Shown here one piece after another: positions 28,426 through 48,847 of a DNA stretch of 64,000 nucleotides (positions within the stretch are counted from its first letter, which is position 1; the number at the start of each line of letters is the position of its first letter). This DNA is from Sphingobium cloacae (lineage in GTDB: Bacteria > Pseudomonadota > Alphaproteobacteria > Sphingomonadales > Sphingomonadaceae): contig NZ_AP017657.1 in NCBI RefSeq assembly GCF_002355855.1, positions 87,713 through 151,712 of the forward strand, in the 5' to 3' direction. The translations under genes were made by a program, and so were the position numbers. Under the pieces are notes generated by a model, which was given only the letters and a program-made list of their open reading frames with translations, did no database searches and was not told the DNA's origin.

Positions 28426-31227
28426 ATGCTTGAGGTCTTCACGGTTGGTGGCGGCGAGTATCTCGTAAACATCTTCAACGCAGTCGCGGCGTGGTCGGGA
28501 GGCGGTGGCTATCGCTCGCTCATCCGCGTCGTCATGGTCATGGGCCTCATCTATTCGCTGCTCGTGGTGGCCTTCACGCTCAACTATAAGGCGTGGCTGA
28601 ACTGGTTCCTGCAAGCGACGGCCATTTATCTTTGCCTGATGGTCCCGACGGTGGACATCAAGGTAACGGATCGCATCAACCCGGGCCTGACGCCATCGAC
28701 GGTCGACAATGTACCGATGGGATTGGGGGTGCTTGCGAGCTTCACGACACAGGTGGGCGATTGGCTGACGCGGACGGCCGAGACCGTCTTCGTCATGCCG
28801 AGCGAGCTCAACTACTCGACGAACGGCATGGTGTATGGCGCGCGACTGTTCGATGCGACGCGCAACTTCATCATTCGCGATGCGGAGTTCTCGACCAACC
28901 TCGAAAACCATTTCAAGAACTGCCTGTTCGGCGATGTGATGCTTTATCAGAAGTCGCTGACCAATCTTGCGAAGGCGCCCGATCTCTGGGCTGCGGTCGG
29001 GCCGGGCTCGGAAGCCCGATCGCAGCAATGGCTTGAGCGACAAGGTGACGGAACGGTTAACAGCTTCATCATCACTTGCCGGCAGGCGTACCAGGCGCTC
29101 GACGCGCAATGGGGTCCAATGATCGAGGCCAACGCGCCTCTTTGGGGCAAGGAGGTCTATCCCAAGCTCAGCAACGCTCTGGCGGCGGACAAGCTCAAAC
29201 ACGACGTTCCCATCGTCAGTGCGGCCTTCACGGGCACGAGCAACAACTTTGCTGAGGTGATGCGCCAGAACACAGCAATCAATGCTTTCATGCAGGCCCG
29301 AAATTCGATGTCCGGCGGGACGGGCGCCGCAGAGATCGACACCTTCGCGCAGACCCGTGCCGACATTCAGGCGCGCAACACCTATAATTCGATCGCTCAG
29401 CAGGCGATGGCATGGGTTCCGATTTTGAACATCGTGCTGACGGTGGTCTTCTTCGCCATGTTCCCGGTCGTTTTCCCGCTCTTCCTGATGCCTCAGACGG
29501 GCGTCTCGACGCTGAAGGGCTATGTGACAGGGTTCTTCTATCTCGCCGCATGGGGGCCGCTTTACGTCATCCTTCACATGATCTGCATGACGCGGGCGAC
29601 GTCGGCAGCGACAGGCGTCGCGGAAGGCGGCGTTACGCTCGCAAGCTATGCGGGGATCGGGGCGGTGAATGGCGAGACCGCCACGATCGCTGGCTTCATG
29701 CTTATGAGCGTGCCCTTTCTCGCGGCAGGCCTCGCGCGCGGCGCGATGTCGATTGCCGGGCATTCCATGTCCATGCTCGCGCCGGCGCAGAACGCTGCGG
29801 AAGCGGCGGCGCTGGAACAGACGACCGGCAACTATTCGTATGGCAACGTGAGCTGGGCGAATGCCACGTCGAACATGCGGCAGGCCGATCAATGGTCGAC
29901 GGCGCCCACCTATATGGGCGGCGGCGCCAGCTTCGGGTGGCGTCAGGACAATGGCGCCATGGTGACGGGGTTCGGCAACGGCCAGGAGGTATATGATACA
30001 TCCGCGGCCATCTCGCGCCTTGGGTTCACGCCGACGATGACATCGGGATCGGTCGCTGAATGGCGCGAAATGGCCAGCGAGGCGCATCGCCAGGCGCGTG
30101 CCTATGAGAATGCCGCCAACGAGATTCTGACCGCGACCCATGCGAACCGCAGCACGTTCGGAAGCTCAACCGAGCATACGCGGGGTTGGGAATCGAGCAG
30201 CGGCAATCAGGCGAATGCCTCTGTAGAGCAGTTCGATCGGCGCACGGGCAGCAGTACCCAGGGCCTGGAAGAGCGATCGACGATTTCGCAAAGCGAGCGC
30301 GTTTCGGGGCGGCACGATCGCCAAGCGCAGATATCCGATCAGATCGGTGGAGCACTTTCGGCCGGCCTTGGCGGCCGCCGCGGTGGCGGCAACGGAGGCT
30401 CGGGTGGGCGCGGGCTGCCGGGGCTCGGAATCAATGTGTCCAAGTCGGGTAGCCAGATGGACACCATGAATTGGACGACGGACGATTCTCGGAGCAGTGA
30501 GAGCGGCAACACCTCGTCAAGCGGGGTTCGTGACGAGCATGCGAACGGTAGCGGCGCTTCGACGTCGGAAGGCACCTATGCTCGGAGCGGTGTCTTCGCC
30601 CGTGGCTCAAGGACGGATTCGTCGTCGGTCAGCACCGAAGATTCCCTGGCTCTGGCGAAATCCTATTCGGAAACCGCGCGACGGCTCGATGAGCTGTCGC
30701 AGCAGCTCTCGCGCGACGCGAGCTATGCGGAGACGCATGGAATGCAATTGAGCGAGAACCTGAGTCAGGATCTCGCCCAATGGTATCGCCACCAGCAGGT
30801 CGCAAATCCGGGGCTCGACGCGCCGGAGCTCTGGGCGACCGACTTGACCGATCAGCAGCGAGCGGTTCGGCAGGAGATGATCACGCGCTGGATGGACGAA
30901 AAGCAGGCGTCGATCCGGTCCGAGATCGAGGGCAGGCTCCATGCGCCCGATCTCGTCGATGTGCACCATCCCTCCGTCGATAGCGCTGCCGACGTTCGGG
31001 CGGCCTACCAGCCTCGCGGGCTAGCCGGAGTGCCGGCCGGTCCCGGAGGCGGCCAGTCATCGACGGCAGCGGACATAATCGAAGAGGGCAGGGCGGATAT
31101 CGACCTGACGCGTGAGGCTGCCCAATCCATGCGCGGTCAACGCATCCAAGGCGCGGTCGATGTTCAAAGCGAGGTAAACCGGGGCAGGGACCATGGCTTC
31201 TTCCATGATCCCAAGCTGCGAGAATGA
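28426..31227 (+). CDS. traG: Mating-pair stabilisation and exclusion protein TraG
   Basis: A 933-residue inner-membrane protein. The N-terminal half has the TraG membrane segments (IRVVMVMGLIYSLLVVAFTL, WLNWFLQATAIYLCLMV, IVLTVVFFAMFPVVFPLFLM, VPFLAAGLARGAM). The C-terminal half is a large soluble domain, Gly- and Ser-rich around residues 645-735, then helical. In F the N-terminus is needed for the pilus, and the C-terminus stabilises mating pairs and is the target of entry exclusion. Residues about 755-830 are clearly related to the small exported protein at 31576-32004. Confidence 0.93.
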   Translation: MLEVFTVGGGEYLVNIFNAVAAWSGGGGYRSLIRVVMVMGLIYSLLVVAFTLNYKAWLNWFLQATAIYLCLMVPTVDIKVTDRINPGLTPSTVDNVPMGLGVLASFTTQVGDWLTRTAETVFVMPSELNYSTNGMVYGARLFDATRNFIIRDAEFSTNLENHFKNCLFGDVMLYQKSLTNLAKAPDLWAAVGPGSEARSQQWLERQGDGTVNSFIITCRQAYQALDAQWGPMIEANAPLWGKEVYPKLSNALAADKLKHDVPIVSAAFTGTSNNFAEVMRQNTAINAFMQARNSMSGGTGAAEIDTFAQTRADIQARNTYNSIAQQAMAWVPILNIVLTVVFFAMFPVVFPLFLMPQTGVSTLKGYVTGFFYLAAWGPLYVILHMICMTRATSAATGVAEGGVTLASYAGIGAVNGETATIAGFMLMSVPFLAAGLARGAMSIAGHSMSMLAPAQNAAEAAALEQTTGNYSYGNVSWANATSNMRQADQWSTAPTYMGGGASFGWRQDNGAMVTGFGNGQEVYDTSAAISRLGFTPTMTSGSVAEWREMASEAHRQARAYENAANEILTATHANRSTFGSSTEHTRGWESSSGNQANASVEQFDRRTGSSTQGLEERSTISQSERVSGRHDRQAQISDQIGGALSAGLGGRRGGGNGGSGGRGLPGLGINVSKSGSQMDTMNWTTDDSRSSESGNTSSSGVRDEHANGSGASTSEGTYARSGVFARGSRTDSSSVSTEDSLALAKSYSETARRLDELSQQLSRDASYAETHGMQLSENLSQDLAQWYRHQQVANPGLDAPELWATDLTDQQRAVRQEMITRWMDEKQASIRSEIEGRLHAPDLVDVHHPSVDSAADVRAAYQPRGLAGVPAGPGGGQSSTAADIIEEGRADIDLTREAAQSMRGQRIQGAVDVQSEVNRGRDHGFFHDPKLRE

Positions 31228-31233
31228 GGAGCT

Positions 31234-31440
31234 TTAGACGAACAGGACGAAATAGCCGACGCAGCCAGCCATGAGCAGATAGGCCAATGCATAGCCGATG
31301 CGACCGCCGAGCGTAGGATTGCCATCGTGATCGACAGCCGTCCCTATTTCGCAATATTCCTCGTCAACATGCGTGCAGACCGGCGTGCCCGAAGCCTTGG
31401 TCCTATTATAGGTTTCGATGTCGAATTTCACGGTTCGCAT
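31234..31440 (-). CDS. Small single-pass membrane protein after traG
   Basis: A 68-residue protein with a polar N-terminus containing two Cys (VCTHVDEEYCEIG) and one C-terminal membrane helix (GYALAYLLMAGCVGYFVLFV). GGGAG lies in good position before the ATG. It is convergent with traG, its stop lying only 7 bp from that of traG. No family recognised. Its location between traG and a TraG-like secreted protein matches that of exclusion genes (traS/traT) in F-like elements, so an exclusion role is possible but inferred. Confidence 0.6.
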   Translation of the reverse strand: MRTVKFDIETYNRTKASGTPVCTHVDEEYCEIGTAVDHDGNPTLGGRIGYALAYLLMAGCVGYFVLFV

Positions 31441-31441
31441 G

Positions 31442-31462
31442 GTGAACTCCCAGGAAGTTCAC
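31442..31462. promoter_or_regulatory. Inverted repeat over the leader of the small membrane protein gene
   Basis: GTGAACT and AGTTCAC form perfect 7-bp arms around 7 nt. The repeat starts one base before the ATG of the minus-strand gene and covers its ribosome binding site. A further GTTCAC copy lies at 31481-31486. It could be an operator or an RNA hairpin that hides the ribosome binding site. Confidence 0.5.
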
Positions 31463-31575
31463 TAGCATGTTCAATCTTTGTTCACAAGGGGCGGCACTGT
31501 CCGAACGGCCATACGGCGCGCCGCTTTGCCCGATTAGGAATGGTCAAACGCAAGGTTGCGCGGAGGGGGTTCGAG

Positions 31576-32004
31576 ATGAAATGGATGGCAGTTGTCATTG
31601 CCGGTAGCGCCCTCCTGGCCCAAGGTGGCCTTGCGACGGCAAAGGAGAGTGCGCTGCCACCACGGGAGTGCGCCGCCAAGGCACAGGCGGCGGCGATGAA
31701 ACTCCGGGATATGGCCTCTGCGATCGAAGCGGAGGCTGCTTATGCCGAGCGGCACGGCGGGGCGTTTTCGCCCGAGCTCACCCAGGAATTCGTTCAATGG
31801 TATCGCGCGCAGAGCGCGAAAGCCGGAAGCGAATTGCCGGATCTGGGAAAGACGGATCTCACAGTTGATGAGGCTCGGGCGCGGCAAGCGGCGGTTGACC
31901 GCTTTCAGCGGGAGAGAAGCGACCGCCAAAATGCCATGGTTGCCGCGATCCATCGCGAGGCTGCGAGGGGATGTCCGGTGCTTGATCGCCCCGCGTCAAG
32001 ATAG
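31576..32004 (+). CDS. Exported protein related to the TraG C-terminal domain
   Basis: A 142-residue protein with a clean signal peptide (MAVVIAGSALLAQGGLATA) and GGAGGG before the ATG. Its mature part aligns with TraG: EAAYAERHGGAFSPELTQEF against DASYAETHGMQLSENLSQDL, then VQWYRAQ against AQWYRHQ, then LGKTDLT against LWATDLT, followed by matched helices. The Cys in PRECAAKA and GCPVLD may form a disulfide. A soluble periplasmic copy of a TraG segment next to traG suggests a decoy or an exclusion or regulatory partner. TraG segments in the literature act in recipient contact, but the role here is inference. Confidence 0.7.
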   Translation: MKWMAVVIAGSALLAQGGLATAKESALPPRECAAKAQAAAMKLRDMASAIEAEAAYAERHGGAFSPELTQEFVQWYRAQSAKAGSELPDLGKTDLTVDEARARQAAVDRFQRERSDRQNAMVAAIHREAARGCPVLDRPASR

Positions 32005-32595: not shown

Positions 32596-34221
<1,626 letters not shown>

Positions 34222-34271
34222 TTAACTCCTTTCCTTGTTCCTTCCTGAATGCTTGAGGAATGGCGGTCCTG

Positions 34272-34586
34272 CTAGGCCGCCTGCTTGAGCGGGACGACAT
34301 TGTCGATCACGCCGAGGATGTCGCTTTCCTTCATGATGAGCAGGTCCTCGCCGTCGATCTTGACCTCGGTCCCCGACCATTTGCCGAAAAGGACCCGGTC
34401 GCCGGCTTTCACGGCGAGTTCGATGAGATTGCCGTTGTCATCGCGCGCGCCGGGACCGACGGCGACGACTTCGCCTTCCTGCGGCTTTTCCTTGGCGGTG
34501 TCGGGGATGATGATGCCGCCCGAGGTTTTTTCCTCGGCTTCAATGCGGCGGACGACCACACGGTCGTGCAAGGGGCGGAAATGCAT
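34272..34586 (-). CDS. groES: 10-kDa co-chaperonin GroES
   Basis: A 104-residue GroES. It has [37 protein letters not shown], with the mobile loop ([10 protein letters not shown]) that binds GroEL, and [14 protein letters not shown] C-terminal signature (here [18 protein letters not shown]). The start at 34586 has GGAGG upstream. It is the first gene of the groESL operon and has a CIRCE site about 110 bp upstream. Confidence 0.97.
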
Positions 34587-34698
34587 GCATAACCTCCGGA
34601 TGCAAAACAATATGTGATGGCCCTCTCGTTCATCTGAACGACAGGCTTTCCGAAGCTAGGAAAGGAGATTTTTCCGTTCAAGGGGTGCAACGAAAAAT

Positions 34699-34727
34699 AT
34701 TGGCACTCTGCGCGAGTGAGTGCCAAT
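34699..34727 (-). promoter_or_regulatory. CIRCE element (HrcA operator) of groESL
   Basis: TTGGCACTC (34700-34708) and GAGTGCCAA (34718-34726) form perfect 9-bp arms around exactly 9 nt, the CIRCE layout (consensus arms TTAGCACTC/GAGTGCTAA). The A/T flank extends the match by one base on each side. HrcA binding here would repress groESL until heat shock. A possible TTGAAC -35 box lies just downstream at 34676-34681 (minus strand). No hrcA gene is in the window, so the host repressor would have to act. Confidence 0.92.
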
Positions 34728-34858
34728 TGCCCTGATTTCAGTGCCTTGGTCATCGCGAATGCCCTCTTGACGCGACTCACGCGCGCACCAAGATTTGCAG
34801 CGGTGGACGTGGCGCCACGAACAACAATGGAGCGACGAGAAGGAAAGGAGGCACAGCA

Positions 34859-35095
34859 ATGTCGCAACCATTTTCCCGTTTTCTTCATCCCTTTGAAGTT
34901 GCCCGGCATCCGAGCCTGGAACCGGAAGTGAAGCGCGCAATTCTGGCGTCCTGGGCGTCCGACAGGTCCGCGGTCAGAAACCAGCCTGGCTTGCGCAAGC
35001 CCCCTGGAGCAAGGCGTCCCATCCCAGTCGACGAAATTCTTGCGGCGATGCACACGCTTGATCAGGGCCATGAGCGGCCGCAGCCGTCGCCGTGA
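34859..35095 (+). CDS. Hypothetical protein before usg gene
   Basis: A 78-residue protein beginning MSQPFSRFLHPFEVARHPSLEPEVKRAILASWASDRSAV. It resembles short proteins found next to heat-shock or usg-type genes in sphingomonads, but I know no function. GGAAAGGAGG precedes the ATG. It is transcribed away from groES and its stop overlaps the next start as GTGA. The CIRCE site lies in the shared upstream region, so heat control of this gene is possible. Confidence 0.7.
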   Translation: MSQPFSRFLHPFEVARHPSLEPEVKRAILASWASDRSAVRNQPGLRKPPGARRPIPVDEILAAMHTLDQGHERPQPSP

Positions 35096-35361
35096 TCGAC
35101 CGGGGATTTATTGCGCAGCTGCGCGGCTATGGCCTGACGACTGCGGAAATCCACTATTATCGTCCGGACGCGCCTTCGCTTCTCCAGCTATTCGTCTGGC
35201 AGGAATATGATCTCGCTCCAGACTTTCCCGTGCTGTTCGATTTTCTCGACCACTGGCGTCGCGAGATCGAGGCGGCGCTCCATTCTGTGCGCATAGCCCA
35301 TGAAGGGCTGATACGCCCTACGGAATGGAACGCCGTCGACGGCGTGATTTCGATTCAGTGA
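35092..35361 (+). CDS. usg: usg-family protein
   Basis: An 89-residue protein with the usg-family pattern: GYGLTTAEIHYYRPDAPSLLQLFVWQEYDLAPDFP, then FLDHWRREIEAALHSVRIAHEGLIRPTEW and a C-terminal VDGVISI. The family is common in alphaproteobacteria, sometimes next to trpF/trpB, and its role is unknown. The GTG start overlaps the stop of the preceding gene. Confidence 0.82.
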   Translation: MIDRGFIAQLRGYGLTTAEIHYYRPDAPSLLQLFVWQEYDLAPDFPVLFDFLDHWRREIEAALHSVRIAHEGLIRPTEWNAVDGVISIQ

Positions 35362-35381
35362 ATCAAGGGGTGTTCAAGCGG

Positions 35382-35741
35382 ATGCGACGCGGCCGCAAGG
35401 ATGGTGCGCGCGTGCGCCTGCCGTTCGACGATATCATGGAGTTCGCGATCGCGTTGCTATCCATCAGTCCGCAGGAGCTCGAGGCGCTGCGCTGGACTTT
35501 TGCCGATCGTAAGCGGCTGCTCGATCATCTGCTTGCATCGGGCCGAGCCGCACAGGGTGTCGATCCCGAACGGTTGGGCATGCTACCGATCGAGATTAGC
35601 ATTCCCAGAGACGATCTGACGAAGATGCAGCAATTCGCCGTTCGCGAACTTCCAAAGGCCGCGAGCAAAGCAGCAGTGATCGACCGTGTTCTCACCGCCC
35701 TCGACCTGGCAGCGCACCGCCAGGACCGTGAAGCCAGGTGA
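35382..35741 (+). CDS. Hypothetical protein after usg
   Basis: A 119-residue basic protein (MRRGRKDGARVRLPFDDIMEFAIALLSISPQELEALRWTF). The C-terminal part (LPIEISIPRDDLTKMQQFAVRELPKAASKAAVIDRVLTALD) is helical. No family recognised. The ATG at 35382 is chosen, though the frame stays open upstream to 35325. It continues the small operon that starts at 34859 and is followed by a terminator-like hairpin. Confidence 0.5.
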   Translation: MRRGRKDGARVRLPFDDIMEFAIALLSISPQELEALRWTFADRKRLLDHLLASGRAAQGVDPERLGMLPIEISIPRDDLTKMQQFAVRELPKAASKAAVIDRVLTALDLAAHRQDREAR

Positions 35742-35742
35742 C

Positions 35743-35759
35743 GGTCTGGTAACCAGACC
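35743..35759 (+). terminator. Hairpin after the usg operon
   Basis: GGTCTGG and CCAGACC form a perfect 7-bp stem with a 3-nt loop directly after the stop codon at 35741. No strong T tract follows (ccgtttcc), so its efficiency as an intrinsic terminator is uncertain. Confidence 0.45.
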
Positions 35760-35864
35760 CGTTTCCGCCCGCTAATCGAGAAATTGGCTCATGGTGCTTC
35801 CTGAAATTCCGGGGCAGGAGCTTCGGAGCGCCGGTGGCCGGGAGCAGAGCGCCCCCGGCCTATC

Positions 35865-36383
35865 TCATGACGCCGCACCGCCATTGATCGGAATTCGGCG
35901 CACACTCTCGTCGGGCTTATCGGAGCGTGGCACTGTCACAGTCAGGACGCCGTTCTTGAACGTTGCGCTCGCCCTGTCGTGTTCGACACCGTTCGGAAGG
36001 CTGATCCGACGTTCGAAGCGGCCATAGCTTCGTTCAGAATAGCCGCGGTCCTTGTCCTCGACCTCGGCCTTCTTCTCGCCGCGAAGAGTGAGCGCGCCGT
36101 CCTCGACCAGCACCTCCACATTCTTCTCATCCAGGCCGGGAAGTTCGGCCGTTACACGGATTTCCTTGTCCGTCTCGCCGAGCTCTAGGTGAGGCCAGCC
36201 GGCGCGCCGATCAAACCCGGCAAAGGCGGGCATGTTGAAGCCACGCAAGACGTCGTCGAAGAGACGGTTCACCTCGCGGTGAAGCGATTGCAGCGGATGA
36301 GTGTCCCGGTCCTGTTCGGCGCTGACCGAGACAGGCAGCCGGTTTTCCTGCCGGCTCCAGGGAATGAGATCACGAAAAGCCAT
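35865..36383 (-). CDS. hsp20: Small heat-shock protein Hsp20 (first copy)
   Basis: A 172-residue class of alpha-crystallin chaperone. After a variable N-terminus comes the alpha-crystallin domain: DKEIRVTAELPGLDEKNVEVLVEDGALTLRGEK, the FERRISLPNGVEHDRASATFKNGVLTVTVP hallmark, and a C-terminal RRIPI motif of the I-x-I type. It holds unfolding proteins. AAGGAG lies 10 nt before the ATG at 36383. The upstream gap 36412-36485 is full of GCCGGC palindromes that could form a terminator or attenuator between the two hsp20 genes. Confidence 0.93.
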   Translation of the reverse strand: MAFRDLIPWSRQENRLPVSVSAEQDRDTHPLQSLHREVNRLFDDVLRGFNMPAFAGFDRRAGWPHLELGETDKEIRVTAELPGLDEKNVEVLVEDGALTLRGEKKAEVEDKDRGYSERSYGRFERRISLPNGVEHDRASATFKNGVLTVTVPRSDKPDESVRRIPINGGAAS

Positions 36384-36487
36384 GATAAGCATCTCCTTTC
36401 TGGCTGGATCCTGTCGATACCTGCCGGCACCTGCCGGCCGCCGCTGGCGGGAGGGACGAAAGCGGCGCCGGCAGGCCGGCGGCGGGA

Positions 36488-36961
36488 TCAGGCAACTTCG
36501 CTCGCCTTCTCCTTCGCCTCGCCGATTTGGCGACCGTCCGGGGCTCCGCCGCCGATTTCGATTCGGCGCGGCTTCATTGCTTCAGGAACGACACGCCGGA
36601 GTTCGATCGAGAGCAGTCCATGTTCGAAGCTCGCCGCTCCGACCTCGATGAAGTCGGCAAGCTGGAAGCGTCGCTCGAACGATCGAGACGCGATGCCTCG
36701 GTGGAGATACTCTCCCTTGTCCGCATCATCGGCGCGCTTGCCGGTCACGGTGAGCTGGTTCTGCTGCGCCACGATCTCGATGTCGTCGGGTCTGAACCCT
36801 GCGATCGCCAAGGTGATGCGGAAGCTGTCATCGCCAAGCTTCACAATATCGAAGAGCGGATAGCCGTCGTCCTCGCGTGCTCCCGCCTCAAGCAGGTTGA
36901 AAAGACGGTCAAAGCCGACCGTTGATCGCCTGTACGGCGTAAAGTCGAAGTTGGTTCTCAT
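36488..36961 (-). CDS. ibpA: Small heat-shock protein IbpA-like (second copy)
   Basis: A 157-residue IbpA-type small heat-shock protein: FDFTPYRRSTVGFDRLFNLLE at the N-terminus, YPLFDIVKLGDDSFRITLAIAGFRPDDIEI, and SRSFERRFQLADFIEVGAASFEHGLLSIEL in the alpha-crystallin domain. The start at 36961 has GGAGGA upstream, and this sequence is folded into a ROSE-like hairpin (36964-36989), so expression should rise with temperature. It lies upstream of the first hsp20 on the same strand, 104 bp apart. Confidence 0.93.
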   Translation of the reverse strand: MRTNFDFTPYRRSTVGFDRLFNLLEAGAREDDGYPLFDIVKLGDDSFRITLAIAGFRPDDIEIVAQQNQLTVTGKRADDADKGEYLHRGIASRSFERRFQLADFIEVGAASFEHGLLSIELRRVVPEAMKPRRIEIGGGAPDGRQIGEAKEKASEVA

Positions 36962-36963
36962 TT

Positions 36964-36989
36964 CCAAATCCTCCAACGAAGCAATTTGG
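36964..36989 (-). promoter_or_regulatory. ROSE-like RNA thermometer in the ibpA leader
   Basis: The last 30 nt of the leader fold on themselves. CCAAAU pairs with AUUUGG, and inside it the conserved-type UUGCUUC pairs with GGAGG, leaving one bulged G and a 3-nt loop. This traps the ribosome binding site. ROSE elements of alphaproteobacterial small heat-shock genes have the same UYGCU box with an unpaired G opposite the ribosome binding site. A second perfect hairpin (37032-37049: CCATCCGG and CCGGATGG) lies further upstream in the same leader. Confidence 0.72.
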
Positions 36990-38962: not shown

Positions 38963-39826
38963 TCAAGCGTGACCAGAAGTCGACGTCAGTTTTTCCAGTT
39001 TGGCGAGGAAAAAGCGCTCACTCCACAGATCAAGCGACCTGAGTTCGGCCGGCCGCAGGAAACGCCGCACGTCGTCAGCGGCGGCCTTCCAGTCGATCTT
39101 CGCAATCGTGCTGCCCAGCGCTTCGTTCAGCCAGGGCATGTCGACGGCGATGTGATTATCTCCCGCCCAGGGACCGGCCTGGATGAGGGCATTGCGCAGG
39201 AGGGCCAGATTGAGCGTTACTCCCTTGGCGACATACCAGGAGAAATCGAACCAGTCCCGACCCTTGAGGAAACCCCGGCATAGCAAGGCATGAATCTTGA
39301 GAGCGAAATTGGACGGCAGATCCTGGTGCCGAACTTCGTGGTCCGCTGGAAAATCGAGATAGCTGGACGCCTCGCCCGAACCCGCAGGTGGGTTGACGTC
39401 GATCTCTAGCTTGATCCGGATCGTCTTTGGCTTACCAGCGCCCGCAAAAGACAGGTCGAGTTGGCTCGCGATGGAATCGTTCTTGATCAGCGCCTGGCGG
39501 ATAGCCGTGTCCATCTTCGCCCTGGGCAGAGCATCGAGCTTCAGCCCGAACTGGCCGAACACCTCGATCAGGGTCTTGAGATAAGGCGTCCAGTCGAAGT
39601 CTGGGTCGGCCTGGCGCAGCAGGAAGTCGAGATCTTCCGAGAAGCGCGGTAGGCTGTTCAGGATGCGCAGGGACGTGCCGCCCTGGAATAGCGCGACGTC
39701 GAAGAAGTCGCCGCGCCAAAGGGCATAGAGCGCGATTTCCTGGAGGATTTCCTTGACCGCATTCTCTTCCTCTAGCGCATTGGCGGGATCGTAGCGGCGC
39801 AGTTTCTCCTGGATGATGTCAATCAT
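38963..39826 (-). CDS. abiEii: AbiEii-type nucleotidyltransferase toxin
   Basis: A 287-residue toxin of the AbiEii/AbiGii family. The nucleotidyltransferase motif is clear: FQGGTSLRILNSLPRFSEDLDFLL, with the G-G-T-S and D-x-D elements, and KIRIKLEIDV-type strand later (here TIRIKLEIDVNP). Related enzymes add nucleotides to tRNA acceptor ends and block translation. It forms a type IV toxin-antitoxin pair with the upstream gene, and overlaps it by 8 bp. Such pairs act in phage defence by abortive infection and in plasmid upkeep. Confidence 0.9.
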   Translation of the reverse strand: MIDIIQEKLRRYDPANALEEENAVKEILQEIALYALWRGDFFDVALFQGGTSLRILNSLPRFSEDLDFLLRQADPDFDWTPYLKTLIEVFGQFGLKLDALPRAKMDTAIRQALIKNDSIASQLDLSFAGAGKPKTIRIKLEIDVNPPAGSGEASSYLDFPADHEVRHQDLPSNFALKIHALLCRGFLKGRDWFDFSWYVAKGVTLNLALLRNALIQAGPWAGDNHIAVDMPWLNEALGSTIAKIDWKAAADDVRRFLRPAELRSLDLWSERFFLAKLEKLTSTSGHA

Positions 39827-40493
39827 GTGCTGAGCGGACCTTCCTGGCCATGACAGTGCTTTCGAGCGCGGCGAGGAAGCTGTTCACGGCCTTGTGCTTG
39901 TAGACCGGTTTCAGCTTGGCGAAATCCTTCCGTCGGAGCCCGAGGAGCATGTCCTCGTCGATCCGCATGCCATGGGTCAGCCACTCGATGCCCGCCCACT
40001 GCTGCTTGCGCAGGGCAACGAGGTCCAACAAGGCCCGCAGCGGCTGTGCGACGAAGGCGATGAGCTTGCCCATCTGCACGCGATCGACGCCGGCCAGGAA
40101 CTGATAATCCGCGATAGCGAGCGGATGAAAGCTGAACGTGCCGAAGTCTGTCGTTTCAAAGCGGAGCGTTTTGCGGCCAGGCGTCACTCCCGCGGTCACA
40201 AAGACCGCTTCGGGGATCCAGCCATGATGGGCGAGCGCGCTTTCGAAAGAGACATAGCTACCCGGCATCAGACCTTGCGCAATGGCGAAGGGATGGATGG
40301 TTTCGGCCCGATAGCGCTTAGCCAGCAGGTAGGTGCCGCGCTTCACGCGGAGCAGGGAACCATCCTTGAGCGCCCGATTGACCAGGCCGTAGCGCCGGGC
40401 GTCTCCGCCGCCCAGCAGATTGCCGAGCTGGCGTTCGCTGAGGATATGATCGGCCAGACCCGCTGCCGTGATCTGTTGCGCCAGGGAGGACAT
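39819..40493 (-). CDS. abiEi: AbiEi-type antitoxin
   Basis: A 224-residue antitoxin. The N-terminal helix-turn-helix region (LSERQLGNLLGGGDARRYGLVNRALKDGSLLRVKRGTYLL) fits an AbiEi_4-type winged helix, and the following domain includes YVSFESALAHHGWIPE. AbiEi represses its own promoter and neutralises the toxin. It is first in the operon, on the minus strand, and overlaps the toxin gene by 8 bp. Confidence 0.88.
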   Translation of the reverse strand: MSSLAQQITAAGLADHILSERQLGNLLGGGDARRYGLVNRALKDGSLLRVKRGTYLLAKRYRAETIHPFAIAQGLMPGSYVSFESALAHHGWIPEAVFVTAGVTPGRKTLRFETTDFGTFSFHPLAIADYQFLAGVDRVQMGKLIAFVAQPLRALLDLVALRKQQWAGIEWLTHGMRIDEDMLLGLRRKDFAKLKPVYKHKAVNSFLAALESTVMARKVRSAHD

Positions 40494-46400: not shown

Positions 46401-46568
46401 AATCCCTTCGAAGGCGTCCTTCGACACCTCGCCAGAGAGACCAGCGATGTCGGCCCCTTCCCCTGCCCAGGCGCTGACCTCGGACGAATCCTCGACGGTG
46501 TAATAGTCGTCCTTCGCGAAATAATTCGCGGACCCGGCGGCCGAGCGGATCGGGGCGACGGAGAGCAT
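43497..46568 (-). CDS. traI: MobF-family conjugative relaxase/helicase TraI
   Basis: A 1023-residue relaxase. The N-terminal TrwC domain has two tyrosines in DDYYTVED (residues 22-23), which cleave and hold the strand at oriT, and the metal-binding His triad with HDTSRALDPQGHIHAV (His 144, 155, 157). The helicase domain has Walker A QGKAGTGKST (about 483-490) and LLVDETSMVSASDML. The C-terminus is Pro-rich. MobF enzymes nick and unwind DNA for export. It follows traD with a 1-base overlap (TGATG). Length is shorter than F TraI, like TrwC of R388. Confidence 0.94.
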   Translation of the reverse strand: MLSVAPIRSAAGSANYFAKDDYYTVEDSSEVSAWAGEGADIAGLSGEVSKDAFEGILNGFLPSGEGVAQVENRRHGLDLTFSMPKSASVMAYVAGDKRVLSANMAAVKQTMAWVEKNLAEGRRDVDGRKVPVQTGNLVYALFQHDTSRALDPQGHIHAVIGNMTQMPDGKWQALHADKIWSHNSIIGAIYHSYLRTALEKIGYTVELRGKHGTFEIVGVPKAAREEFSQRREDILNKAAETGITSHKGRDQITINTRDPKLDVEDRGALRQSWIERAAALGFDGKDLRAAAEARAGMMTAVGPLERGYRAIVDAIDLARSRLGDFLRPHDPLVDHALARAVKSPEEARTQLAVASAVRILSEREAAWPLHMVSKTALDLGLKGVTVESVERRIDQLVQNRQIVMGTAHATDRDGKMVTTQEALRIEEKILDLVKEGNGAANPVLSAADAPARLQAVAEHPLNPGQLAAATLILSSDDRTITIQGKAGTGKSTMLQAVSRVAEAEGRTIRGLAFQNKMVGDLAEGAGIQAQTIASFVLAHERFIAERNTPRYEAARERLAGTMLLVDETSMVSASDMLKLHQISAAMGVDKLVLVGDRQQLSSIDWGKAFAMIQAAGATMVRMTQNIRIGKPGQPLTEEQQKLKVVAELANVGKAGAAMKVLGEHIVEEKDPAAAAADSWLGLSPEEREATAVFASGRDARETINKRIQAGLIAEGSVKGEALQLTVYDRVNTTREELRYASTYRPGQTLEVGRGGAQDVGIQAGRYDVLKVHASGKVDLADGRRRIRFDPQKLSPAEQRDRLQLSEKKPLDIHEGDRIRWTANDKGRGLHNATLARVVSVDGSGVTVETAGKEQLTLPMGDPMLSRLDLAYSLNMHMAQGITTDRAIGVMSSFERFLSNQRLFNVLVTRVRDGLTMIVDDKEKLARQLDMNPGNKTSSLETVGRLDIDGNMAKGAKAREDFNPGPIDGVDLSDLPPLPDDLPPLPDAGAAAPVGKDQAAKPEPKPDRAEQLPPLPERSLGLDL

Positions 46569-47854
46569 CAGATGCCCATATCGAGATCGTTGTCGTCACG
46601 GCCGGCCGAGAAGTCCTGACGCAGTTCGGCGAGCGTCTGATCCTCGACCTGGGGCGTCCCCTGACCCTGCCGATGGCCATCGCTCCGATCGTCGCGATCC
46701 CGCGCCGCAACAGCCTGCTCGTCTGATCGGGCCGGTGCCGCGGGCGCCTTTTCGGCGCTTTCACCCTTTACCGATCCCTGATCACCGCGGTCGTCCGTGC
46801 CCTGCGCCGCCCGTGCCGCCGCGTTCCCCTCTTCTTCTGCTTCCGCCGACAATATCCCGGCGGCCAAATCCCGCGCGAGATTGGGAGATTCCAGAATCTC
46901 GTCGATCACCAGCAACGAGCCGTCCCGCCCGCCGGCTTCCCCTGCCCCATCCTCCTCGAACGCCCCTTCTCCGCGCCTTGATCGAACGGGTTGAACATTG
47001 GCGCGAGGCATGAAGCCCTCGGCGACAACGGGGTATCGTTTCCATTCGAGCTTGATCCGTCCTGCGGGGAATCCGTCCGGATATTTGACATATCCGTGAA
47101 GCGCCGGAAGGTTGGTGATGTCGTCGGGAAGGACAAGCGGTTCGACCTGCTTTCGCGGAGTCAGCGTCGAAGCGTCGCGCGTGTTGTTATAGCCGTAAGA
47201 ATAGGCCTCATCCATCTGGCGAACCTCACGGTTTCCGATGTAGAGGGAGCATTCTTCGGCGGTCTTATATTCGCCGGTGGCGAGGATCAGCTTGGTGCGT
47301 GCTAGCGAAGCAAGATTTCGAGCGCCTTCTTCGCCGTAGACCTCGACGAGCTTCGGAAAGCTGTGGAGGCCGAGGAGCATTGCTCCGCCAAAATTGCGTG
47401 CGGTCTGAAGTCCCTTCTCGATGGCCGGCAGACGGTGGAGCGCGGCGAGTTCGTCGAACACGAACCAGGTGCGCAGACTGTTCGTCCGCGGCATCGACAT
47501 GAGGCTCGTGATGGACAGGTTCGTCCAGAGCGTCAGGAGCGGACGGTTCAGCTCCAGGTCCTCATAATCGGAGGTGATGAAGAGGATGGCGCCGGGCCTT
47601 TTGTCGGCCGTCATCCACCTGCGAATGGAGTAAGGCTCGCCCTCGTCGGGGAGGAACCGCAGGACCTGCGCATTGGTATTGAAGACAGCCCGGATCGATT
47701 CCGCCATCCGTGCAGCTTCCGGGGCGGTCAGCGGGTCCGCGATTGTGTTGGCCAGATAGCGGTGCACGCGCTTCAGGTCGGCCGTCATCAGATTGTCGGA
47801 GAGAGCGAGATTGGTCGTTTGGCCGCGCTCGCGGAGCTTGATGCACATTTCGAT
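46568..47854 (-). pseudogene. traD: Coupling protein TraD, truncated by IS21
   Basis: The frame encodes the C-terminal about 428 residues of a TraD/VirD4-type coupling ATPase. They include RTWFVFDELAALHRLPAIEKGLQTARNFG (Walker B and motif III region) and LLGLHSFPKLVEVYGEEGAR. The C-terminal tail is acidic and Gln-rich (QTLAELRQDFSAGRDDNDLDMGI), as in proteins that bind relaxosomes. The N-terminal membrane anchor and Walker A are missing, replaced by the IS21 left end at 47855. The open frame above this point is IS sequence. As it stands the element should be unable to couple its own relaxosome to the channel. Confidence 0.88.
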
Positions 47855-48350
47855 TGTCAAACGGCGTTCAAAAGGGACCCCCGATCGGCGTCGAAGAGGG
47901 ACCCCCTTTTTCGGATATGATGTTGGTTTGTTGAAGATGGCCTTGCGCTGCGTGCGGCGGAGGGCGGGCGTAGCCCGACCGGAGGCGCGCGCAGCGCAAG
48001 ATAGATTTTTGAAGGCGCCGAAGGTAGCGGTCAGCTGCGGTTTTTGAAGCGCCAGCTGTCGTTGCCCGTCTCGATGATATCGCAGTGGTGGGTGACGCGG
48101 TCGAGCAGCGCCGTAGTCATCTTGGGATCCCCGAAGACGGTAGGCCACTCGCCGAAGGCAAGGTTGGTGGTGATGATGACGCTGGTGCGCTCATAAAGCT
48201 TGCTGATGAGGTGGAACAGCAACTGCCCTCCCGAGCGTGCGAACGGCAGATATCCAAGCTCGTCGAGCACGATCAGATCGAGCCGCGACAGCTGCGCCGC
48301 CAGGGTCCCGCCTTTGCCGATCCGGGTCTCCTCTTCGAGGCGTGTCACCA
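47855..48350 (-). mobile_element. IS21 left-end fragment, 496 bp
   Basis: This is a copy of 2442-2937 of the complete IS21 element with the same length and, by eye, no differences. It begins at the outer left terminal repeat inside traD and ends abruptly in istB at a shared CACCA. Beyond this point the sequence becomes a group II intron. The right part of the element, including istA, is lost. It is in the same orientation as the complete copy, so the two form direct repeats 45.4 kb apart. Confidence 0.93.
48031..48350 (-). pseudogene. istB: istB, C-terminal fragment
   Basis: The last about 106 codons of IstB are present, with Walker B ([12 protein letters not shown]) but not Walker A. The frame on its 5' side is fused to a group II intron reverse transcriptase fragment. 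It is a dead copy. Confidence 0.9.
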
Positions 48351-48847
48351 AAGAACCCCGCGACATCCACATCTACGAGCCATTTCACCCCCGTCCATAC
48401 GGCTTTGACGTGTTCAAGCGCCGTATGACACGACCGGCCCGGCCGGAATCCATGGGAGGCGTTCGAGAACACCGGTTCATAGATCCGTTCGAGCAGTTGC
48501 CGCGCCACTTCCTGAACGAGGCGGTCGTCGCGCGTGGGAATGCCCAGCGGACGCCGTTTGCCCTTGCCTTTCGGGATAAACACCCGACGCACTGGTTTGG
48601 GATCATAGGTCCCTGCCGTCACGCTGGCGATAATCGGGTCGAGGTCTTCCGGTCCGAAGTCCGCGAAGGTCTCGCCGTCAATACCCGGCGTCATCGCACC
48701 CTTGTTGGATCCGATCTTCTGGAGCCCCTCCTCCCAAAGGAGGCGAGACCCCATCAGACGATAGAGTCCATTCACCCTTTTGCCCGACGCAACGAGCGCC
48801 GGAATGGCCTCCAACCGGCCTTTCACAGTTTCTGGCAGCATCAGCAC
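48351..48847 (-). pseudogene. ltrA: Group II intron reverse transcriptase, N-terminal fragment
   Basis: About 165 residues of a group II intron reverse transcriptase/maturase remain: GAMTPGIDGETFADF, IPKGKGKRRPLGIPTRDDRLVQEVARQLLERIYEPVFSNASHGFRPGRSCHTALEHV, and [11 protein letters not shown], where the next residue should be the Asp of the conserved FFD. These are RT blocks 0-3. The catalytic YADD block and maturase domain are missing. The break coincides with the IS21 junction at 48350/48351. Confidence 0.88.

Follow-up and report, generated by a model that had tools for sequence, protein, structure and literature searches.

A stand-alone, apparently exported relative of the TraG core behind traG in a sphingomonad F-type transfer region

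What might a small, apparently exported protein do when it resembles part of the mating-pair stabilization protein TraG and is encoded directly behind traG itself? This question arises from a 64-kb stretch of Sphingobium cloacae DNA (the window), i.e. the final 64 kb of a 151.7-kb contig in a genome of seven contigs, which carries an F-type transfer region. The initial annotation had seen here an exported copy of a TraG C-terminal segment, accompanied by a one-helix membrane protein on the opposite strand, and had proposed a new entry-exclusion or decoy module.

The locus behind traG

In an annotated twin plasmid the transfer genes are ordered traC, traW, traU, trbC, traN, traF, traH, traG, with traH and other F-type genes lying upstream of traG. 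The window's TraG matches not only Pfam TraG_N (table 1) but also NCBIfam PRK13735 (E 1.1e-109), where its 367.9 bits remain under the model's cut-off of 600. Behind traG follow, in this order, the opposite-strand 68-aa gene, the stop of which lies 6 bp past the traG stop, a 135-bp gap, the 142-aa gene and then STAS, groEL, groES and Hsp20 genes; both small genes do sit right behind traG, as initially annotated. The start of the 142-aa frame is annotated identically in an identical plasmid (WP_125445839.1). The N-terminus of this protein is, by inspection, a hydrophobic stretch with an AxA-type end site, by which it is predicted to be exported, and the earlier claim of export is likely to be right. 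In the 68-aa protein, a C-terminal 19-residue window has a mean hydropathy of 2.03, and this protein is predicted to be membrane-anchored.

The divergent intergenic region contains, just upstream of the 68-aa gene, a perfect 7-bp dyad (GTGAACT-N7-AGTTCAC, 31442-31462) with further GTTCA/TGAAC half sites nearby, which could possibly be an operator or a 5'-UTR hairpin; among 11 other loci scanned, the dyad was found only in the identical plasmid (L001). For Sphingobium sp. RAC03 and S. paucimobilis, the upstream region has, by eye, different dyads that surround the Shine-Dalgarno site.

Immediately after the transfer region, groEL, groES and two Hsp20 genes occupy 32596-36976 of the window, and at 38963-40493 the gene of an AbiEii-type nucleotidyltransferase (so annotated in the twin plasmid) and a partner gene are a possible toxin-antitoxin or abortive-infection pair. 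The coupling-protein frame at 46568-48847, the opening stretch of which recurs at 2190-2735, is followed by a frame that by eye is reverse-transcriptase-like; since the twin plasmid has a 768-aa coupling protein at the equivalent place, the window copy looks interrupted by mobile DNA. The genome as a whole (G000) encodes five TraG_N proteins, of which the window's contig (C3) and C2 carry one each and C1 three, in longer frames, and a profile-free search of G000 found the stand-alone paralog only in the window.

Table 1. Features at the traG end of the transfer region (window coordinates).
Feature	Position	Strand	Basis
traG, 933 aa, F-type mating-pair stabilization protein, VirB6-like N-terminal domain	28426..31227	+	Pfam TraG_N PF07916, E 5.4e-106
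TraG residues 627-700, corresponding to the segment that sets exclusion specificity in F/R100	30304..30525	+	MAFFT mapping and column conservation
TraG residues 750-826, block common to TraG and the exported protein	30673..30903	+	BLASTP, profile-profile
68-aa protein, gene convergent with traG, hydrophobic helix at the C-terminus; candidate exclusion factor	31234..31440	-	
135-bp upstream region common to the two divergent genes	31441..31575	.	
Stand-alone, apparently exported TraG C-terminal core paralog, 142 aa	31576..32004	+	C32, P66 and C133 invariant, 10 members
Putative signal peptide, residues 1-22, cleavage after ATA	31576..31641	+	by inspection
TraG-like block of the exported protein, residues 39-114	31690..31917	+	BLASTP

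Descent, remodelling and spread of the exported protein

BLASTP aligns residues 39-114 of the exported protein with residues 750-826 of the window's TraG (36% over 77 aa, E 6e-13 as a single comparison); the block, ungapped-looking in the initial annotation, carries one gapped column. At the level of profiles, ten stand-alone proteins match 12 TraG tails significantly over 93 columns (HHalign, probability 98.9, E 2.2e-17), at about residues 738-834 of TraG. Library models were weak or silent, with NCBIfam PRK13735 reaching E 0.011 (residues 48-118 versus 749-816 of the model) and Pfam yielding neither a TraG match nor a TraG_N domain at E<=1. Because of the BLASTP, profile and HHalign matches, common descent is the appropriate reading: as judged by these alignments the exported protein, which has no polytopic TraG_N domain, is a divergent relative of the conserved core in the C-terminal half of TraG, and in this respect the earlier claim of homology stands.

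By alignment and model, this relative is not a plain copy of TraG but a remodelled version. C32, C133 and P66 are invariant in 10/10 stand-alone proteins, and neither a cysteine nor a proline equivalent to P66 occurs in 18 TraG core rows. In 9/10 family members the proline is accompanied by Gly-Gly, where the long TraG helix runs unbroken; G61 is common to the stand-alone and TraG groups, and G62 is present in 9/10 stand-alone rows and 0 TraG rows. Y56, A57, W75, Y76, P88 and L90 are likewise invariant in the ten stand-alone members, A57, Y76 and P88 even across all 28 rows including TraG. Predicted from a 22-row alignment (mean pLDDT 84.8), the exported protein has three helices, at residues 29-59, 66-80 and 97-130, with block pLDDT of 94-98 for residues 31 to 130 and values below 50 for residues 1-5 and 7-21; the helix break sits at HGG-AFSP. 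In contrast, the TraG tail is modelled with one long helix at about 733-793 and a second at 809-839, in a prediction of lower confidence (mean pLDDT 66.3, pTM 0.33) for which one of five models was clearly better. C32 is located early in helix 1 and C133 shortly behind the end of helix 3, and a disulfide between them might, at a guess, close the helix bundle. At E<=0.001 the model of the exported protein matched nothing in the PDB (best E 4.1) or among viral models (best 1.9), and sequence searches with the family profile (E<=1) or TraG (E<=0.01) turned up no relative of solved structure.

In a 56-row tree, one branch separates the stand-alone proteins from the other rows (support 79/71, the first value being 79% of 200 bootstrap trees). 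A single origin of the family is favoured, though not proven, and independent fresh duplications of traG are disfavoured by this separation, weakly so owing to the very long branches of the S. yanoikuyae and S. panacis proteins. The four stand-alone loci are all open, with 28-58% identity among them. In all six pairs of the four genes it is the third codon positions that differ most (0.61-0.73 versus 0.27-0.54 for first and second positions), and the stand-alone protein therefore appears to have been kept.

An important question is whether the exported protein resembles the TraG of its own plasmid. When the four stand-alone proteins were compared with 14 TraG tails (a 4 x 14 matrix), the own TraG ranked 10th, 9th, 6th and 6th by score and was best in 0/4 plasmids, and cognate mimicry was rejected. 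In S. yanoikuyae, HN and LHQ letters common to the stand-alone protein and TraG looked like matching; there, the own TraG ties for the top percent identity (35% over 71 residues) and ranks 6th by score, so that none of the four pairs tracks its cognate by score and one ties by percent identity. Within the genome of the window, a TraG encoded on a different plasmid-like contig is a slightly better match for the exported protein (35%, E 1.4e-13) than the TraG of the window (31%, E 6.7e-12). Aligned directly with E. coli TraG, the stand-alone proteins show weak similarity, with scores of 39-52.

Nor does the exported protein include the counterpart of the segment that sets exclusion specificity in F and R100, i.e. 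TraG residues 610-673 (PMC9797247). With an IncF TraG of 940 aa as yardstick, MAFFT maps this segment to residues 627-700 of the window's TraG, where sphingomonad TraG varies most (modal frequency 0.60 for 641-680), and the shared block starts downstream of it, at about 738-750. This block holds the best-conserved TraG stretch after residue 480 (modal frequency 0.89 for 761-800; these residues of the window's TraG are 28% identical to the E. coli protein). A protein mimicking this block would presumably act broadly on related plasmids rather than on a single one.

A plasmid search with one relative matched 46 records, five of which—three identical plasmids, S. yanoikuyae and S. panacis—have a stand-alone copy plus a TraG match; in the other 41, the matches are annotated as TraG (36), as hypothetical protein (2) or not at all (3). 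Within the order, a profile of eight stand-alone relatives found matches in 20/396 genomes, and in the 19 besides the window's own the matching frames, presumed to be TraG, are 314-1161 aa long, with best E values per genome between 5.5e-20 and 6.3e-7. The family-wide scan gave matches in 15/397 genomes, with a stand-alone protein in two (G000 and G174), and the class-wide scan a match in 1/385, the window's own; both scored at most ten candidates per genome, which makes misses possible. Scanning GTDB contigs yielded five loci from 112 pattern matches, i.e. four identical copies (Novosphingobium, Rhizorhabdus, Sphingobium and Sphingopyxis) and one at 56% in S. chungbukense, and a relative is encoded by 0/85 pattern matches on viral contigs. 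By these sequence searches the stand-alone family is rare, and it was found here only in sphingomonads. The exported protein of the window is 100% identical across five sphingomonad genera (Sphingobium, Sphingomonas, Novosphingobium, Rhizorhabdus and Sphingopyxis; L029-L032, H1-H3), a sign of recent wide spread.

All four distinct contexts are F-type transfer regions, in which the stand-alone gene lies 0.34-11.6 kb downstream of traG. It is divergent from the small gene in the window type (135 bp) and in S. chungbukense (126 bp). In S. yanoikuyae it is found 2.4 kb past traG, beyond umuDC, and in S. panacis 11.6 kb past traG, with a lasso-peptide cluster in between (L002 16075-20673); in both of these plasmids it is apart from the small gene and oriented against traG.

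The small protein convergent with traG

The one-helix protein, initially annotated as a mere companion of the exported protein, is present as described and turns out to be a conserved neighbour of traG. At 40/43 distinct traG ends there is a convergent ORF whose 58-80 aa end in a hydrophobic C-terminus, its stop lying from 30 bp inside to 15 bp past the traG stop in the 40 loci, as against 2/299 control ORF ends with such an ORF (shadow frames included). L019 (profile score 14 bits) was left out before this count of 43; without six loci that had been fetched via the small protein itself (L023-L028), the count is 35/38, and after additional thinning to <85% identity it is 25/27. The three traG ends lacking the small ORF are L038/L063, where a Tn3 transposase gene stands at the end of the matched TraG fragment, L044, which has only a 48-aa frame there, and L053. 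Of the two genes that the initial annotation had regarded as a pair, it is thus the small one that recurs at nearly all traG ends, with the stand-alone gene being present in 5/46 plasmid records with a match.

Across a 13-row alignment of the small-protein family, D7, Y11, T14 and P20 do not vary; members from the long-branch TraG clade look different in sequence. Neither Pfam nor NCBIfam, TraS (PF10624) included, matched the 68-aa protein at E<=1, and no member of the TraS (PF10624) or TraT families was detected in the window's genome, with control matches obtained in E. coli. Across the class, the small protein had matches in 5/385 genomes at E<=0.01; the four besides the window's own are weak and partial, with E between 2.9e-4 and 6.5e-3 and frames 138-746 aa long, and seem to be chance matches. 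In two plasmids, at L025 (5613-5930) and L026 (5600-5920), a protein of about 106 aa with several hydrophobic stretches is encoded divergently from the small traG-convergent gene, and no stand-alone copy matched there.

Distances among the small proteins (32 rows) correlate with those of TraG block 561-700 at r 0.817, of 831-933 at 0.770 and of the membrane block at 0.629; eight of 40 distinct pairs (TraG profile score <40 bits) had been left out of this set, and some of the 32 retained rows are near-identical. After controlling for the membrane block, 0/2000 permutations reach the value in four of five C-terminal blocks, and 7/2000 do so for 451-560. With all other blocks controlled for, no TraG block stands out, and some partial values are negative (451-560: -0.44). 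More variable TraG blocks generally correlate better with the small protein, the tail following close behind 561-700, and re-runs without the five most divergent rows and then without nine further rows had the same outcome. By these distances, the small protein co-diverges with the C-terminal half of TraG. For a narrower link of the co-divergence to the exclusion segment the signals are mixed: 561-700 has the top raw r, but there is no clear separation among finer blocks. Exclusion genes are frequently found next to VirB6-type genes (PMC11493245), and the 68-aa gene likewise adjoins traG. Because of this position and the co-divergence, we infer that the 68-aa protein is a better exclusion candidate than the exported protein.

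Possible roles and known systems

Our best guess, a tentative one that falls short of even confidence, casts the exported protein as an accessory factor in the periplasm that would compete non-specifically with the TraG rod. It would serve as a soluble stand-in for this rod and keep the surface by which TraG touches a conserved partner in the mating machine, which could be TraN, TraH or TraG itself. Competition for this partner would tune or damp mating in plasmid-carrying cells without plasmid specificity, with specific exclusion resting more likely on the one-helix protein adjoining traG. That the shared block is the best conserved after residue 480 fits a common rather than a plasmid-specific partner. 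The competitor reading has to accommodate, however, that a stand-alone copy in just 5/46 plasmid records is dispensable, that in S. yanoikuyae and S. panacis the gene is away from the small gene and runs against traG, and that similarity to E. coli TraG is weak (scores 39-52). Moreover, a periplasmic competitor would make no sense if the TraG tails of sphingomonads were cytoplasmic. This is the main uncertainty, as work on F and on SXT disagrees on the side of the membrane: the C-terminal part of F TraG is reported to be periplasmic and not functional on its own (PMC9797247), whereas another article describes the TraG exclusion regions of IncF and SXT as cytoplasmic (PMC11493245). Rather unlikely as a whole is a more elaborate, two-layer control of mating, in which a tail-anchored, traG-convergent exclusion factor would be complemented, in some plasmids, by a secreted, disulfide-closed mimic of the TraG rod that broadly damps the mating of all related F-type plasmids by occupying TraG's conserved partner.

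Alternatively, the exported protein could act on the donor side as an accessory subunit, i.e. an extra TraG-like piece or assembly factor that promotes mating-pair stability, perhaps on particular hosts or surfaces. This is doubtful but deserves consideration: the gene is located behind the tra operon, likely export and the added cysteine pair would suit this system, as its F relatives include thioredoxin-like proteins in the periplasm (PMC7555446), and SGI1 sets a precedent for a mobile element whose own, second TraG enters a mating pore (PMC5389848). Yet most related plasmids do without a stand-alone copy (again, 5/46 records have one), and in the window an opposite-strand gene separates the exported-protein gene from the tra operon. 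An unlikely reading is that the TraG core fold was kept as a scaffold for an envelope role unrelated to conjugation, to which the long S. yanoikuyae and S. panacis branches, the changed position and orientation there, the changed helix and the added cysteines might point; all four distinct contexts, however, are downstream of traG in F-type transfer regions, and six residues are invariant in the ten proteins, three of them in all 28 rows including TraG. The originally proposed decoy, i.e. a soluble TraG mimic in the recipient that blocks the donor TraG of the same plasmid, keeps its foundation in homology, likely export and position, but in this plasmid-specific form it is quite improbable. 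TraG is the exclusion target in F and SXT/R391, with adjoining exclusion genes (PMC11493245), and in the window and S. chungbukense the two small genes are adjacent and divergent; against this, the shared block lies outside the counterpart of the F/R100 specificity segment, the own TraG is not the best-scoring one in 4/4 plasmids and is slightly surpassed by that of another contig in the window's genome, the stand-alone protein is sporadic among related plasmids, and the known exclusion factors considered here are not TraG copies. Finally, a partial copy beside its parent type could be a decaying, non-functional fragment of a traG duplication, but this is very hard to reconcile with open frames at 28-58% identity between the four loci, the third-position excess, the invariant cysteines and proline, the favoured single origin (79/71) instead of several fresh copies, and the missing preference for the own TraG.

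Whichever role applies, a natural stand-alone and apparently exported TraG core offers a small, makeable domain for finding TraG's partner, and the small traG-convergent protein is a ready exclusion-factor candidate for a whole group of sphingomonad plasmids. Titles and abstract openings of the best-ranked open-licence papers in our literature searches describe neither a stand-alone exported TraG C-terminal protein nor an exclusion system of sphingomonad F-type plasmids.

Among known systems, the 68-aa protein is comparable to TraS of IncF and Eex of SXT/R391 and IncC, membrane exclusion factors whose genes adjoin that of their target TraG (PMC11493245). F TraS, however, has 149 aa and 3-4 predicted helices (PMC7555446), whereas the 68-aa protein has one C-terminal helix. 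Also, the exclusion gene of an IncF plasmid is on the traG strand and the 68-aa gene on the opposite one. TrbK and Eex of IncP, IncN and IncW plasmids are lipoproteins with a small size similar to that of the 68-aa protein. Their genes abut a VirB6-type gene (PMC11493245), as the 68-aa gene does, but the 68-aa protein has, by inspection, no N-terminal lipobox, and its sole hydrophobic helix is C-terminal. The exported protein, for its part, is reminiscent of SGI1 TraG, likewise a TraG-derived extra protein with the potential to act on a mating apparatus already in place, and one that disables IncC exclusion (PMC5389848). In contrast to this full-length form (1135 aa), which replaces TraG, the exported protein lacks both the membrane domain and the specificity segment. 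In terms of the TraG part concerned, it parallels TraG*, i.e. residues 452-940 of F/R100 TraG, which is reported to be periplasmic and mostly helical (PMC9797247). TraG*, however, is a part of TraG, whereas here a gene of its own encodes the corresponding core, reduced to about 100 residues and furnished with a signal-type N-terminus, two cysteines and a helix break.
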